Virus record (IMG/VR): IMGVR_UViG_3300044613_000607
Span: 1-20,212 of that record
DNA length: 20,212 nucleotides
Source of the DNA: a virus
Reading direction: 5' to 3' (one strand)
Part shown: piece by piece, positions 3,889 through 14,905 of the stretch
Layout of the letters: each line of letters starts with the position of its first letter
Numbering within the stretch: the first letter of the stretch is position 1
Notes under the pieces: model-generated
Told to the model about the DNA's origin: nothing
Databases searched by the model: none
Seen by the model: the letters and a program-made list of their open reading frames with translations, nothing else
Program-made: the position numbers and the translations under genes

Positions 3889-4238
3889 AGCTCACGCCTA
3901 AGATTATTGAAAACATCTATGCCATGCTGTATTGCTGCGAGCCGTTTGCGTCTTGGGATTTGCCATTGCCTGAAGAATGTAAATTTATAGTCGATAGCGA
4001 CTTTGACGCTATGGGTACTTATTTATATGACGACGGGGAAAAACACGCCCATACCATAACTATATCTGACGCTAGGTGTGGGCATTTAGACACAGTAATT
4101 AGGACTATGGCTCACGAGATGATTCATGCAAGCCGTTGGAATACTTCTACCCAAGCGTGGACTAAGCACGATAAAACCTTTAGAAATAGGGCTAAAGCTG
4201 TAGCTACAGAACTAGGCTTTGACCCGTTGGAGCTTTAA
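3885..4238 (+). CDS. SprT-like zinc metalloprotease
   Basis: The 117-residue protein has the zincin signature HEMIH at 77-81, with E78 as catalytic base, and a downstream H95 in WTKHDKTFR as likely third zinc ligand. This is the SprT-like layout. SprT/Spartan proteases in cells cut proteins crosslinked to DNA; the role of short phage versions is not established. The usual C-terminal zinc-ribbon cysteines are missing, so this is the minimal protease domain. The gene is coupled to the phosphoesterase by ATGA. Its stop overlaps the stop of the convergent methyltransferase (3 bases shared in TTTAAA). Confidence 0.85.
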   Translation: MKLTPKIIENIYAMLYCCEPFASWDLPLPEECKFIVDSDFDAMGTYLYDDGEKHAHTITISDARCGHLDTVIRTMAHEMIHASRWNTSTQAWTKHDKTFRNRAKAVATELGFDPLEL

Positions 4239-4861
4239 ATAAACATATCCCCTTGTGCGTAGGCTTGTTCTATACGCTTACAAGCTACATCAAAGTATTT
4301 TTGTTCCCTTTCAATACCTACAAAAGTTTTGCCCATTTTGACACAAGCAACCCCTGTGCTTCCGCTACCCATGAATGGGTCTAATATGGTAATTCCATCA
4401 ACTTTATCAATACACCATTGCATAAGGCGTATAGGTTTTTGTGTTGGATGTTCTTTGCCTTTGTAATCACCATTAGCCAATGGGTCATATAAAAAAACTC
4501 TTACATTTGCATCTAAAGAAGTCCATGCTAATTCTGCTTCTGCATAAGTTCTGTTTTTAAATCCAGCGCCTTTGTCCCATACTAACCAACATCTTGATGC
4601 TGGCAAATTAAAATAATTACCACCCCAAAATATAGATTGTTTTCCTTTTGTTATACAAAGTTGCAACAATTCTTGATTTGGCGGTAATTTATCCCACCCT
4701 AGTTTTTCAAAATTATTAAATCCTTTGTATCCAACATTCCCACCATCCATTCCAATGCCGTAAGGCGGGTCTGTGACTACAGCATCAAATTGCCCTAATG
4801 TTGGCAATATTTCAGCACAATCTCCCAAATACAGCGTTGCGTTACCTATTTGTTGTTTCAC
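4235..4861 (-). CDS. DNA methyltransferase, DPPY type (N6-adenine or N4-cytosine)
   Basis: The 208-residue enzyme has catalytic motif IV DPPYG at 31-35 near the N-terminus and the SAM-binding motif DPFMGSGSTG at 161-170 near the C-terminus, the beta-class order. HPTQKP at 138-143 is the usual motif X region. Between them there is little room for a target recognition domain, so the site is probably short. No restriction enzyme gene is adjacent, so this is an orphan phage methyltransferase, plausibly for evasion of host restriction. It starts at GTG and overlaps the preceding Ref-like gene by 20 bases. It is last in the long minus operon starting at 8210. Confidence 0.92.
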   Translation of the reverse strand: MKQQIGNATLYLGDCAEILPTLGQFDAVVTDPPYGIGMDGGNVGYKGFNNFEKLGWDKLPPNQELLQLCITKGKQSIFWGGNYFNLPASRCWLVWDKGAGFKNRTYAEAELAWTSLDANVRVFLYDPLANGDYKGKEHPTQKPIRLMQWCIDKVDGITILDPFMGSGSTGVACVKMGKTFVGIEREQKYFDVACKRIEQAYAQGDMFI

Positions 4862-5126
4862 TTAGCTTTCTTTCTACTATACCTAGTAAGGTATCGAACT
4901 CAACTTCGTGGTATCTCTCAAAAGCCTTTGCTCCGAGTCCATGCACACCTGTAGCACCTCTGTGATGCTCGGTACATAAGGGGAGAATTGGTGCGTTTGC
5001 CCGTTTACCCCCGAATCGTCTGACATGGTGAAGCTCTGCGGGGGTGTCATTAAAGCCCAAGTGGTAGCATAAGACGCAACCAAGTCTTGCAATATTGTCA
5101 TTTAGTTTTCTTTCTTTTTTATTCAT
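4842..5126 (-). CDS. Ref-like HNH nuclease (phage recombination enhancement type)
   Basis: From the ATG at 5126 the protein is 94 residues. Zinc and HNH-type residues are CVLC (C17, C20), ELHHVRRFGGKR (H33, H34), PLCTEHH (C51, H54, H55) and GVHGLG (H62). This pattern, ending AFERYH, is that of the P1 Ref / DUF968-like group, in which P1 Ref makes RecA-dependent cuts. A longer form from TTG at 5171 is open, but ATG 5126 overlaps the upstream stop as ATGAATAA, and family members usually begin with the basic helix just before the first Cys. The gene lies between a PD-(D/E)XK-like nuclease and a DNA methyltransferase. Confidence 0.85.
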   Translation of the reverse strand: MNKKERKLNDNIARLGCVLCYHLGFNDTPAELHHVRRFGGKRANAPILPLCTEHHRGATGVHGLGAKAFERYHEVEFDTLLGIVERKLSETTNR

Positions 5127-5511
5127 TGGCGTATTCGTACCACATTGTATAAAAGGCTTTAAAGTCATCAACCCCTGTGCCGAGTTTAACGCATGACCCG
5201 TAGGATTGGACTTGCCAGTAGTCTTGGATAACTAGCCCGTCATCTGTGTTGCCTTGCACAATAACAACTGTAAAGTTAGGCGTTTTAGCAAAGGCTTGCA
5301 ATAATCTGCGTTGACCCTCGCTAACCTTTTCATTGGGGCGTTTCCATTCCATCACCAAAAACTTGCCTTTACGCTCTGCAATCCCATCTATGTTACTGGG
5401 GCAAAAATGTGGATTTGTAGGCAATAGCCCTAAGAACGCACCATAATCAATGTGTGATGCGAAAGCATTACGCATTATCTTATTGAATGTTTGCATCTTT
5501 TTGCAGTACAT
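5119..5511 (-). CDS. PD-(D/E)XK-like nuclease
   Basis: The 130-residue protein contains a restriction-endonuclease-like core: IDGIAERKG supplies D42, KFLVMEWKRP supplies E55 and K57 (E-x-K), and VSEGQRRLL supplies a Gln as in VRR-NUC-like enzymes. It therefore probably cuts DNA, but the substrate is unknown. Two starts are possible: ATG 5511, which sits directly after AGAGG, and ATG 5496 (MQTFNK), which shortens the overlap with the upstream gene from 32 to 17 bases. I cannot choose firmly. The stop overlaps the Ref-like start. Confidence 0.7.
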   Translation of the reverse strand: MYCKKMQTFNKIMRNAFASHIDYGAFLGLLPTNPHFCPSNIDGIAERKGKFLVMEWKRPNEKVSEGQRRLLQAFAKTPNFTVVIVQGNTDDGLVIQDYWQVQSYGSCVKLGTGVDDFKAFYTMWYEYANE

Positions 5512-5647
5512 CCTCTAGTTCTTGAGCTAAATCGGTTACATCACAGCTTTTTAAATAGGCTTCAGTTGCCTGATTTTTTAGGCAAAATTCATGCACTTTT
5601 TTGATGGCTTGGTTTAGTTCTAACATTACTTCTGCGTAATCTCTCAT
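5480..5647 (-). CDS. Small hypothetical phage protein (55 aa)
   Basis: An unbroken 55-codon frame starts at ATG 5647, which overlaps the stop of the upstream gene as ATGA. It ends at TAA 5482-5480, inside the start of the nuclease gene. The product begins MRDYAEVMLELNQAIKKVHE and ends DANIQ; it is acidic and helical with two Cys residues and no recognised domain. Coupling and gap filling (no other frame covers 5512-5643) are the evidence. Confidence 0.7.
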   Translation of the reverse strand: MRDYAEVMLELNQAIKKVHEFCLKNQATEAYLKSCDVTDLAQELEDVLQKDANIQ

Positions 5648-5973
5648 TTGGTTAGCCTTTCTATATTTCTGTCATTAGCTTGTTGGGTACGCCATGCCTC
5701 AAAACGCATCTTGGCGGCTTCTAATTGCCATCTAAGGGCTTCTTTTTGCTCTACCGCTACACCTATGGCTTTGCATAAATCTTGATACTCTTGACTGCGG
5801 TAGGCTTCCCGTTCTTGAGCACCAAGGCTTTGTTCGTCAGTTTGCGACATCTTGATGGCTTTAAGACTGTGCCTAAAGTTCTCAAGCTGGGCCAACTCGC
5901 CTGACGCTTTAGCGTATTGCGGTGCTGTTTTAAATATAAAGTCTATTGCTTCGTGTGGGTCATACTCTTTCAT
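5644..5973 (-). CDS. Conserved helical phage protein, function unknown
   Basis: The 109-residue protein is mainly amphipathic helix with probable coiled-coil stretches. Blocks that look conserved in phage relatives I remember are FRHSLKAI, GAQEREAYRSQEYQDL and EALRWQLEAAKMRFEAWR. Such proteins recur among early/recombination genes of proteobacterial phages, but I know no function. The ATG at 5973 follows directly on the TAG (5976-5974) of the second-frame ORF in the methyltransferase gene, with AAGGAAG upstream as ribosome binding site. The stop overlaps the next start as ATGA. Confidence 0.75.
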   Translation of the reverse strand: MKEYDPHEAIDFIFKTAPQYAKASGELAQLENFRHSLKAIKMSQTDEQSLGAQEREAYRSQEYQDLCKAIGVAVEQKEALRWQLEAAKMRFEAWRTQQANDRNIERLTK

Positions 5974-6943
5974 CTAATCTTCCTTTAAGCACATTCCATG
6001 CTGTTCTTGCCACTTCTGAAACTTGTCCATTGCCAATGGATTTAAGTCTGTCCATCCCAGCGGCCACCCCATTAGCCACTCTACCCACATCGGGTTCAAC
6101 TTCCCACCAGCTTGTGTGCTTAATGCTGTTCCACCCTGTGCGTATTTTTTCTTTCTGTGGCTTGTATCGCTGGCTACTGGAGTACTCCAAATTTTCATCG
6201 AATCCCTGACCGCCTGATTGATTGTGTATTGAGCTGGTTGTCCGCTCGGTCTTACTGGCAACCAAGTTTCTTGTGTTCCCCTGTTCCCGCAATTCGCATC
6301 GGGTGTCGGCCACCTTTGTATCTGTGTTTTGCCTTCTACTAGTTCTTTTAATCCCCTGCCGTATCCCACCGAAGTCCTTGCTGGTTCTTGCGCTCTTGGA
6401 GTGGGCCAAAATCCATATTCTTTCTCTGAGGTGATTTGCACCAACATCGGCTGCCGATAACACTCCCCATTCCGCATCGAACCCCATCTTGGCCAAGTCT
6501 GCAAGGACTGTTCCGAGTCCTCTAGTAGTGAGCATTGGGCTGTTTTCCACAAAAGCGTATTGGGGTCTAACTTCCCCAATAATTCTTGCCATCTCTTTCC
6601 ACATTCCACTTCTTTCTCCGTCAATCCCTGCTCCTTTGCCTGCGGCAGAGATGTCTTGGCATGGAAAGCCGCCCGATACAACATCAACAATTCCTCGCCA
6701 AGCGTTTCCGTCAAAGGTTTGAACATCATCCCAAATCGGGAAAGGCGAGAGTATTCCGTCATTTTGTCGGGCAAGCAATACGCTTGCTGGATATGATTCC
6801 CATTCGACTGCACAGACTGTTCGCCATCCGAGCAAATGTCCCCCAAGTATTCCTCCACCAGCACCTGCGAAAAGAGCCAACTCATTCAATCCATTCCCCC
6901 TGATTACCTTTGTTACCTTTTGTCCATTGGTCTGCAAAGCCAT
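5960..6943 (-). CDS. C5-cytosine DNA methyltransferase (Dcm type)
   Basis: This frame encodes up to 327 residues with all main C5-methyltransferase motifs: FAGAGGG (25-31, motif I), the acidic CAVEWE (44-49), GGFPCQDIS (91-99, catalytic C95), FVENS (131-135, motif VI, with Ser for the common Val), HLRERIW (171-177, motif VIII) and SIGNGQV (302-308, motif X). The variable target-recognition region is about 180-280. No restriction partner is adjacent. The start is uncertain: ATG 6943 overlaps the upstream small gene by 62 bases, whereas in-frame TTG 6889 has AGGGGG six bases upstream and still retains motif I. The 3' end overlaps the next gene by 14 bases. A second long frame on the same strand lies wholly inside it (5974-6885). 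Confidence 0.93.
   Translation of the reverse strand: MALQTNGQKVTKVIRGNGLNELALFAGAGGGILGGHLLGWRTVCAVEWESYPASVLLARQNDGILSPFPIWDDVQTFDGNAWRGIVDVVSGGFPCQDISAAGKGAGIDGERSGMWKEMARIIGEVRPQYAFVENSPMLTTRGLGTVLADLAKMGFDAEWGVLSAADVGANHLRERIWILAHSKSARTSKDFGGIRQGIKRTSRRQNTDTKVADTRCELREQGNTRNLVASKTERTTSSIHNQSGGQGFDENLEYSSSQRYKPQKEKIRTGWNSIKHTSWWEVEPDVGRVANGVAAGMDRLKSIGNGQVSEVARTAWNVLKGRLDERV
5974..6885 (-). CDS. Overprinted ORF inside the C5 methyltransferase gene (303 aa)
   Basis: A same-strand frame shifted by one base is open for 303 codons. It begins MSWLFSQVLVEEY, has LQTWPRWGSMRNGEC (128-142), three spaced WPTPxA/WSTPxA units (160-165, 192-197, 233-238) and ends with LNPMWVEWLMGWPLGWTDL (263-281). 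I remember very similar sequences as hypothetical phage proteins, but could not search. Its ATG overlaps the upstream small gene's stop as ATGA, AGGGGG lies ten bases upstream, and its TAG directly abuts the next ATG, so it fits the operon better than the methyltransferase frame. The alternative is that it is only a conserved shadow of the methyltransferase code. Function unknown; possibly a second product. Confidence 0.55.
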   Translation of the reverse strand: MSWLFSQVLVEEYLGDICSDGEQSVQSNGNHIQQAYCLPDKMTEYSRLSRFGMMFKPLTETLGEELLMLYRAAFHAKTSLPQAKEQGLTEKEVECGKRWQELLGKLDPNTLLWKTAQCSLLEDSEQSLQTWPRWGSMRNGECYRQPMLVQITSEKEYGFWPTPRAQEPARTSVGYGRGLKELVEGKTQIQRWPTPDANCGNRGTQETWLPVRPSGQPAQYTINQAVRDSMKIWSTPVASDTSHRKKKYAQGGTALSTQAGGKLNPMWVEWLMGWPLGWTDLNPLAMDKFQKWQEQHGMCLKED

Positions 6944-7061
6944 TTAGTAAATTACTATCAAGTTTATATTTTGATAGATATTCTCTAAACTTTGCTAACC
7001 CCCATTGATTACGCCATTTACATAACTGCCGTACTGCACATTGGTATTGGTGTTCAATCAA
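6882..7061 (-). CDS. Small conserved phage protein (59 aa)
   Basis: The frame opens at TTG 7061 (LIEHQYQCAVRQLCKWR) and ends FADQWTKGN...GEWIE at TGA 6884-6882. No ATG lies before it in frame, and a stop lies seven codons upstream, so TTG is the only likely start; GGAG sits just one base before it, which is poor spacing. The HQYQCAVRQ...W and QWTKGN pieces recall small proteins in betaproteobacterial phages (possibly a DUF7696-type group, unsure). It fills the gap between the replication-type gene, which it overlaps by 8 bases, and the second-frame ORF, which it overlaps by ATGA. Confidence 0.65.
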   Translation of the reverse strand: MIEHQYQCAVRQLCKWRNQWGLAKFREYLSKYKLDSNLLNGFADQWTKGNKGNQGEWIE

Positions 7062-13727: not shown

Positions 13728-14905
13728 TATTTTGCTCTTTCTAATTCAGCGATACGGACTGCTTGTGCGCCTACTTTAGCGTTTAGTTCTTGAAGTGCTT
13801 TTATTAGCATTGGTACAAAAACAGAATACTTTACCGATTTTGTAGTTGTTCCTAACAATTCATCGCCTAAACCCCTGTCTTGGGTTTCTTCAATCAAGCT
13901 TGGGAATATTGTTTCAAGTTCTTGGGCAATTACACCAATCTGCTTGTGTTGGTCGTATTCACCTTTTAAATTGTAATTACGCACTTTAACTTGCATTAAC
14001 TTATCAAGTTTTGGTGTTGCATCAACAATGTTTTCTTTTACTTTAATGTCAGAAATAGCACCATAGCTATTATTAGCATTTTCAATATTTCCATTGCCGT
14101 AAATAAATATGTTGTTTACTGAACCGCCACTAGACGAACCATATAAGTGATACCATCCTGTGCCTGAAGTTGCGGCAGAATCACTACGAAATGCTGTGGC
14201 GGCATAAGAAGCTGGGCTAGAAGCAGTAATAGTTCTAGCATTTATATCGGTTTGATTTATGGTAACTTTTCCATTAGCACTTGTAGTACCAATCATTGCA
14301 TCACCATTAGAGTCAATACGCATTGATTCCGCACCACCCTCAGCGAACGCAATCGTATCTGCTGCTGGGAAGAAAATACCTGTATTGGTATCGCCTGTAG
14401 TAGTAATAGCTGGTGCTGATACTGTGCCAGCTTGTACTGTAGTTACGCCTGTAGCTTCTAGCGTGGTAAATTTACCTGCTGCGGCTGTATTAGCACCAAC
14501 AATACCATCAAAGTTAGCAGCGTTTATTCTTCCGCTAACTCCAAGTCCACCCGTAATAACGGCTGTTCCTGTAGTTGTAGAAGTAGATGCTGTGTTTGCT
14601 GTAAATGTTGTAGCACCACTACTTGTTAAAGTAGTAAATGAACCAGCACCACCAACCAAAGCGTCTGCATATGCCTTAGTAACTGCGTCTGTAGATAAAG
14701 TAGGGGTAGCTAAGTTAACAATTTTGTTACTGTTTAAATTTAAGTTACCCGTCATTGCGGTTTGACCATCTGCGGCAACCGAGTCGGTCATAGCAGAAGC
14801 CAAATCATTCATGGTGTTATTAGCCCATGTGCTTGCAATGGTTGTGCCTGTAACTACGGGATTACCCGCAGGTAGTGTATATGTGCCTGACCCGTTTCTA
14901 CTCAT
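13727..14905 (-). CDS. Tail fibre with C-terminal S74 intramolecular chaperone
   Basis: The 392-residue protein opens with SRNGSGTYTLPAGNPVVTGT, an N-terminus common in phage tail fibres, followed by SSTWANNT-like sequence (about 25-31) and a Thr/Ala/Gly-rich shaft of repeats (about 85-280). The C-terminal domain from about 283 is Peptidase_S74: SDIKVKENI (S285, K288, K290) and GVIAQELE (324-331). S74 domains help the beta-helical trimer fold and then cut themselves off; S285 is the likely nucleophile. AGGAG lies seven bases before ATG 14905, which overlaps the previous stop by 8 bases. It probably binds the host surface. Confidence 0.93.
   Translation of the reverse strand: MSRNGSGTYTLPAGNPVVTGTTIASTWANNTMNDLASAMTDSVAADGQTAMTGNLNLNSNKIVNLATPTLSTDAVTKAYADALVGGAGSFTTLTSSGATTFTANTASTSTTTGTAVITGGLGVSGRINAANFDGIVGANTAAAGKFTTLEATGVTTVQAGTVSAPAITTTGDTNTGIFFPAADTIAFAEGGAESMRIDSNGDAMIGTTSANGKVTINQTDINARTITASSPASYAATAFRSDSAATSGTGWYHLYGSSSGGSVNNIFIYGNGNIENANNSYGAISDIKVKENIVDATPKLDKLMQVKVRNYNLKGEYDQHKQIGVIAQELETIFPSLIEETQDRGLGDELLGTTTKSVKYSVFVPMLIKALQELNAKVGAQAVRIAELERAK

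Follow-up and report, generated by a model that had tools for sequence, protein, structure and literature searches.

A phage gene with two overlapping reading frames is likely to specify a split cytosine-5 DNA methyltransferase

C5-methyltransferases are built from a large domain, which holds most of the conserved motifs, and a small domain, to which the variable region and motif IX belong (PMC3404938). M.EcoHK31I (YGGCCR) is a natural two-chain enzyme of this type, whose large chain carries motifs I-VIII and X and whose small chain carries motif IX (PMC3404938, PMC3439449), the predicted TRD being placed on the large chain (PMC3404938). The second two-chain enzyme considered here, M.AquI (CYCGRG), is split after motif VIII, with both motif IX and motif X on the small chain (PMC3404938; PMC3439449). 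In the Cluster O paper, coding potential was noted in the overlap of Corndog gp6 and gp7, and the choice between two products, a frameshift and a hop was left open (PMC4351075). Owing to the M.EcoHK31I, M.AquI and Corndog precedents, the kind of enzyme described below is already known. The out-of-frame HNH endonuclease reported for ShiLan in actinophage methylases (PMC11855218) was also considered and is a different insertion.

The window analysed here is the whole 20,212-base virus record IMGVR_UViG_3300044613_000607 (positions 1 to 20,212), in which a C5-cytosine methyltransferase frame, hereafter the outer frame, overlaps a second long frame in +1, the inner frame. Both frames were located exactly where the sequence-only reading had placed them, and the junction signals described there were also recovered, namely the ATGA joining the inner frame to the upstream ORF, the AGGGGG ten nucleotides before the inner start and the inner TAG touching the next ATG (Table 1). 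The outer frame matched PF00145 (1e-31) and phrog_363 (3e-68), and the inner frame matched phrog_1008 (1.7e-27), a family named 'DNA methyltransferase' by PHROGs and matched by 91 of 91 aligned inner-family members. The label of phrog_363 is the same, and neither label reveals that the two families are read from one gene in two frames. On the sequence evidence set out below, we consider it likely that this is one gene whose two overlapping frames together specify one split cytosine-5 DNA methyltransferase.

Table 1. Features of the two-frame locus in window coordinates.
Feature	Position	Strand	Remarks
Outer frame ORF, ATG version	5960-6943	-	327 codons; C5-cytosine methyltransferase
Outer chain, probable form	5960..6889	-	TTG start 6889; 309 aa; motifs I-VIII and X, large domain
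Inner +1 frame ORF	5974-6885	-	303 codons; proposed small-domain/motif IX subunit
Upstream small ORF	6882..7061	-	59 codons, TTG start; its TGA overlaps the inner ATG as ATGA
Downstream gene	5644..5973	-	ATG (5973) adjoins the inner stop TAG
Twin start codons TTGAATG	6883..6889	-	outer TTG 6889-6887; inner ATG 6885-6883
AGGGGG, Shine-Dalgarno-like, common to both starts	6896..6901	-	sequence; 6 nt 5' of TTG, 10 nt 5' of ATG
Outer linker, motif VIII to X	6104..6388	-	about 95 codons; no recognisable TRD; same bases as the inner WPTP-repeat region
Inner motif-IX-like element NPMWVEWLMGWPLGWTDL	6043..6096	-	third-base constraint; single-chain methyltransferase counterpart before motif X
Outer motif X, GNGQV	6020..6034	-	present in 93/96 outer chains

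Relatives were gathered twice, once with the inner protein and separately with the outer protein alone, and counts were made on 96 non-redundant genes (97 for start positions). The outer chains showed the PCQ of motif IV in 95 cases out of 96 and the ENx of motif VI in all 96, and the outer frame of the window carries the PF00145 motifs I, IV, VI, VIII and X. The outer profile aligned with M.HhaI and canonical C5-methyltransferases over motifs I-VIII only. Canonical motif IX was found in none of the 96 outer chains as against 29 of 30 canonical chains, and no outer chain united a TRD with motif IX. The linker between motifs VIII and X varies from 48 to 164 aa among relatives. An AlphaFold2 model of the outer chain had a pLDDT of 53.9, and over residues 172-244 the linker was modelled at low confidence (pLDDT <50) and without secondary structure. 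The best structural match was M.HhaI (Z 9.1, 127 residues aligned at 4.2 Å), which provides weak support, and VIA-align paired the C-terminus of this low-confidence model with that of M.HhaI. By its motif content the outer chain is identified as a large catalytic domain with neither motif IX nor a conserved TRD.

The inner frame returned no useful match from Pfam, NCBIfam and PADLOC and no significant match among PDB sequences. Its AlphaFold2 model, calculated for the chain alone (91 sequences), was poor, and the fold search was set aside because a pLDDT of 54.8 was too weak. Profile comparison by hhalign aligned inner residues 159-284 with the VIII-X segment of single-chain actinophage methyltransferases (probability 96.3, E 1.9e-9), a segment which consists of PTP repeats, then EWMMGWPAGWVT, then motif X, so that a motif-IX-like element precedes motif X in the single-chain enzymes too. 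The inner element is unlike the canonical motif IX consensus RExxRxQGFP and no alignment was found between the inner profile and canonical C5-methyltransferases; for this reason, its assignment as motif IX rests on the single-chain actinophage relatives and on the HHpred result in PMC4351075. According to the profile alignment, the C-terminal half of the inner chain is homologous to the VIII-X segment of the single-chain enzymes. The inner chain very probably supplies the part missing from the outer chain, positioning the enzyme on DNA, and it may determine the target sequence. Alternatively, it may bring motif IX without setting the target, since the predicted TRD of M.EcoHK31I sits on the large chain (PMC3404938). 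Two short families, phrog_26627 and phrog_35493 (about 70 aa each; window 5974-6120), correspond to the inner C-terminal motif-IX-like element only; they are either small proteins made of motif IX or incomplete gene calls.

The position of motif X was then compared among relatives. At 198 loci, some of them redundant, motif X lies on the outer frame and the outer linker is free of stops; besides these, two loci have a stop in the outer linker and five have no detectable motif X pattern. Two genes assigned to the family by both profiles (L274 and L276) show the reverse arrangement, as their outer frame ends just past motif VIII, with 10 and 6 stops beyond it, respectively, and the inner frame reads on through the WPTP repeats, the motif-IX-like element and motif X. 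The Corndog-type locus L161 likewise has motif X on the second ORF, and the inner profile matched Corndog-type gp6 at 1.5e-18. In Mycobacterium phage Camperdownii (L366), the large-domain ORF and the ORF with motifs IX and X are in different frames. There, gp76 (motifs I-VIII) and gp75 (RNG, PTP repeats, IX, X) overlap within 1372-2518; a phmmer search of gp75 against the PDB returned noise only. ORF pairs of this kind, both called 'DNA methyltransferase', are entered in many mycobacteriophage records. In single-chain genes such as that of Batiatus (L170) and those of L301-L352, RNG and the first PTP units are in +1 and the further PTP units, IX and X are in frame 0; in the single-chain actinophage methyltransferases it looks as if repeat units crossed frames within one gene. 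The occurrence of motif X on one chain or the other therefore fits two chains that build one enzyme.

These observations bear on the most durable of the alternatives, namely that the inner frame encodes a real protein whose function is unrelated to methylation, for instance a de novo overprinted anti-restriction or regulatory protein. The empty Pfam, PDB and PADLOC results would agree with such an origin, as would the first 95 inner residues, which have no counterpart in known methyltransferases. It is nevertheless made unlikely by the homology of the C-terminal half to a methyltransferase segment, by the transfer of motif X to the inner frame or its equivalent in L274, L276, L161 and L366, and by the lack of motif IX in the outer chain.

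In 97 genes examined for the arrangement of their start codons, the outer start precedes the inner ATG by 4 nt in 85 and follows it by 5 nt in 10, so that the two starts are 4-5 nt apart in 95 genes, and a Shine-Dalgarno-like tetramer occurs within 20 nt upstream of the start pair in 88 of 96 relatives, with a background of 33%. The sequence-only reading had given the outer frame as 5960-6943; the extent of the ORF was correct, and the TTG at 6889 is a more probable start than the ATG at 6943 because 85 of the 97 relatives share a start codon in this position. The true outer product is thus probably the 309-aa form beginning at the TTG. In five genes (L137, L102, L145, L115, L150) the inner start motif M[SA]WL[IM]S lies further upstream, over unrelated outer residues, having shifted as a unit.

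Programmed frameshifting from the outer frame into the inner C-terminus, giving a fused single-chain enzyme and leaving the inner start unused, was mooted for Corndog gp6/gp7 (PMC4351075) and could draw on the existence of single-chain relatives such as L170. We regard it as quite improbable, since the inner N-terminal region (outer codons 0-80) is under strong constraint (SN/SS 0.25), the inner ATG and the common Shine-Dalgarno sequence are conserved, and the inner start motif relocates as a unit in the five genes mentioned above.

The coding status of the inner frame was evaluated by counting stops. No inner stop was present in any of the 96 non-redundant relatives, as compared with 5.2 expected per gene from synonymous permutation. 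At no scorable locus did the inner frame contain a stop in the stretch from motif I to motif X, whereas 10-28 stops were counted in the other sense frame; in 30 non-redundant canonical phage C5-methyltransferases, used as a family-level control, the +1 frame held 10-25 stops per gene. The sequence-only reading had named freely occurring inner stops in close relatives as evidence against a second protein, and none was seen, including at the loci collected through the outer frame alone. When 399 genomes were drawn and screened with the outer profile, 5 gave matches, and the loci inspected comprised two open in both frames and one apparent frameshifted copy. The copy in one bacterial genome (L371, G340:C10) changes reading frames in mid-gene, which seems to disrupt the two chains together.

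Substitution patterns were compared with those of an ordinary gene located elsewhere in the window (4235-4861). At an outer amino acid identity of 0.60-0.65, outer four-fold third positions were identical at a fraction of 0.70 in the family, as against 0.35 in the control gene and 0.42 in canonical C5-methyltransferases. A simple overlapping-gene count returned an inner SN/SS of 0.36 versus 1.01 in the control and an inner NN/NS of 0.52 versus 0.75; the bootstrap intervals on such values are too narrow because sequence pairs are not independent, but the differences are nonetheless large. Inner substitutions, whose neutrality had been raised as a further argument against the second frame, consequently do not behave as neutral. 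In the linker the outer frame looks unconstrained (NN/SN 0.87, NS/SS 1.33; amino acid identity 0.14-0.29), whereas the inner frame is constrained there (NN/NS 0.55). The inner NPxWVEWLMGWP element showed the lowest NN/NS of the five regions (0.32), with an outer third-base identity of 0.98. In this family the second frame is thus open more often than expected and synonymous change is reduced, the two signs that define an overlapping pair, and these counts indicate that each frame encodes protein and is subject to purifying selection.

As had been pointed out from the sequence, several inner motifs are one-base-shifted readings of methyltransferase motifs, GSMRNGE being the shifted GFDAEWG; because inner motifs shadow outer ones, their conservation is by itself no proof. 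The evidence that decides for inner coding lies instead in the stops, the third bases, the five moved N-termini and the two genes in which the inner frame alone runs through IX and X, and by these measures the inner frame is a real coding sequence. That only the outer frame codes, with the inner one kept open by amino-acid or codon bias or by nucleotide-level constraint, is scarcely credible: shifted motifs and the +1 ORFs of canonical C5-methyltransferases (longest per gene, median 161 codons) speak for it, and it is contradicted by the missing stops, by a linker constrained in the inner frame only and by L274 and L276, where the inner frame is open and the outer closed. The sequence-only reading had left a choice between a widespread hidden second protein and a set of spurious database proteins; stop and third-base evidence support the former and contradict the latter.

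In the mechanism that we propose for the split methyltransferase, a single Shine-Dalgarno site would load ribosomes, which would initiate at either of two starts 4 nt apart. The outer frame would yield the large catalytic domain with motifs I-VIII and the motif X helix, and the +1 frame a small domain that contains motif IX and probably recognises the target sequence through WPTP units, which vary in number; both chains would then assemble. A likely role is the shielding of phage DNA from host restriction. More broadly, and with less assurance, we favour the view that the family forms a widespread phage and prophage class of fully overprinted genes, in which one ribosome binding site and twin starts serve a catalytic chain and a separate target-recognition chain, and in which the domain boundary is fluid, motif X and WPTP units moving between frames and between split and single-chain forms.

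When published motif layouts are compared, the outer chain matches the large chain of M.EcoHK31I, with motifs I-VIII and X and no IX. The small chain of M.EcoHK31I is reportedly encoded in another frame inside the large-chain gene. The window gene differs from it in that the overlap covers nearly the whole gene, the twin starts are 4-5 nt apart and the inner frame carries WPTP repeats; moreover, M.EcoHK31I is part of a restriction-modification system, and no such partner could be recognised in the neighbourhood of the window gene. It differs from M.AquI in having motif X on the large chain, small-chain motif X being confined to L274, L276 and the Corndog/Camperdownii type. Corndog gp6/gp7 and Camperdownii gp75/gp76 share with the window gene a large-domain ORF and an overlapping other-frame ORF with an RNG-PTP-motif IX module, but their second ORF also carries motif X and their overlap covers only part of the gene. 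No description of the family as a two-frame gene was found in the literature searched, within which the near-complete overprinting, the twin starts, the breadth, the selection evidence and the switching of motif X appear to be new. To our knowledge, dsDNA phages and bacteria very rarely contain overlaps on one strand that span about 300 codons and keep both frames conserved in many bacterial groups. The present family offers a large natural data set that ties both frames to one enzyme, so that dual-coding constraints and the choice of initiation at twin starts become directly testable.

The overprinted pair was found in prophage or chromosomal contigs of proteobacteria, Desulforhopalus, Verrucomicrobia, Spirochaetia, Planctomycetota and others, and a diverged pair in phages of Mycobacterium, Paenibacillus, Synechococcus, Microcystis, Stenotrophomonas, Vibrio and others, the inner frame being +1 relative to the outer in 93 of 94 such loci. 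The annotated frame differs among records, being the outer one in Acinetobacter ABMM1 and E. coli PT62 and the inner one in Pseudomonas phPA-G; in Paenibacillus Jacopo both are annotated as methyltransferases. Annotators usually enter only one of the two proteins. With many phage methyltransferases annotated as one of two chains, cloning of the annotated gene with altered codons would probably destroy the second chain and give an inactive enzyme. On the Leptospira interrogans plasmids NZ_CP043879.1 and NZ_CP092671.1, an inner-frame relative underlies a gene whose sole annotation is DNA cytosine methyltransferase.

Finally, other features of the window were recorded. Just downstream of the two-frame gene, 4235-4861 on the minus strand is a second DNA methyltransferase gene (N6_N4_Mtase, GTG start), beside which lies a RecA-dependent nuclease-like gene (4842-5171), and 5119-5511 gave a weak VRR-NUC match. 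The gene at 614-1216 on the minus strand encodes a GIY-YIG endonuclease that bears a NUMOD3 motif and is probably of the homing type. A 168-codon ORF at 14259-14765 on the plus strand runs antisense to the 13727-14905 gene and is probably a by-product of repetitive composition.
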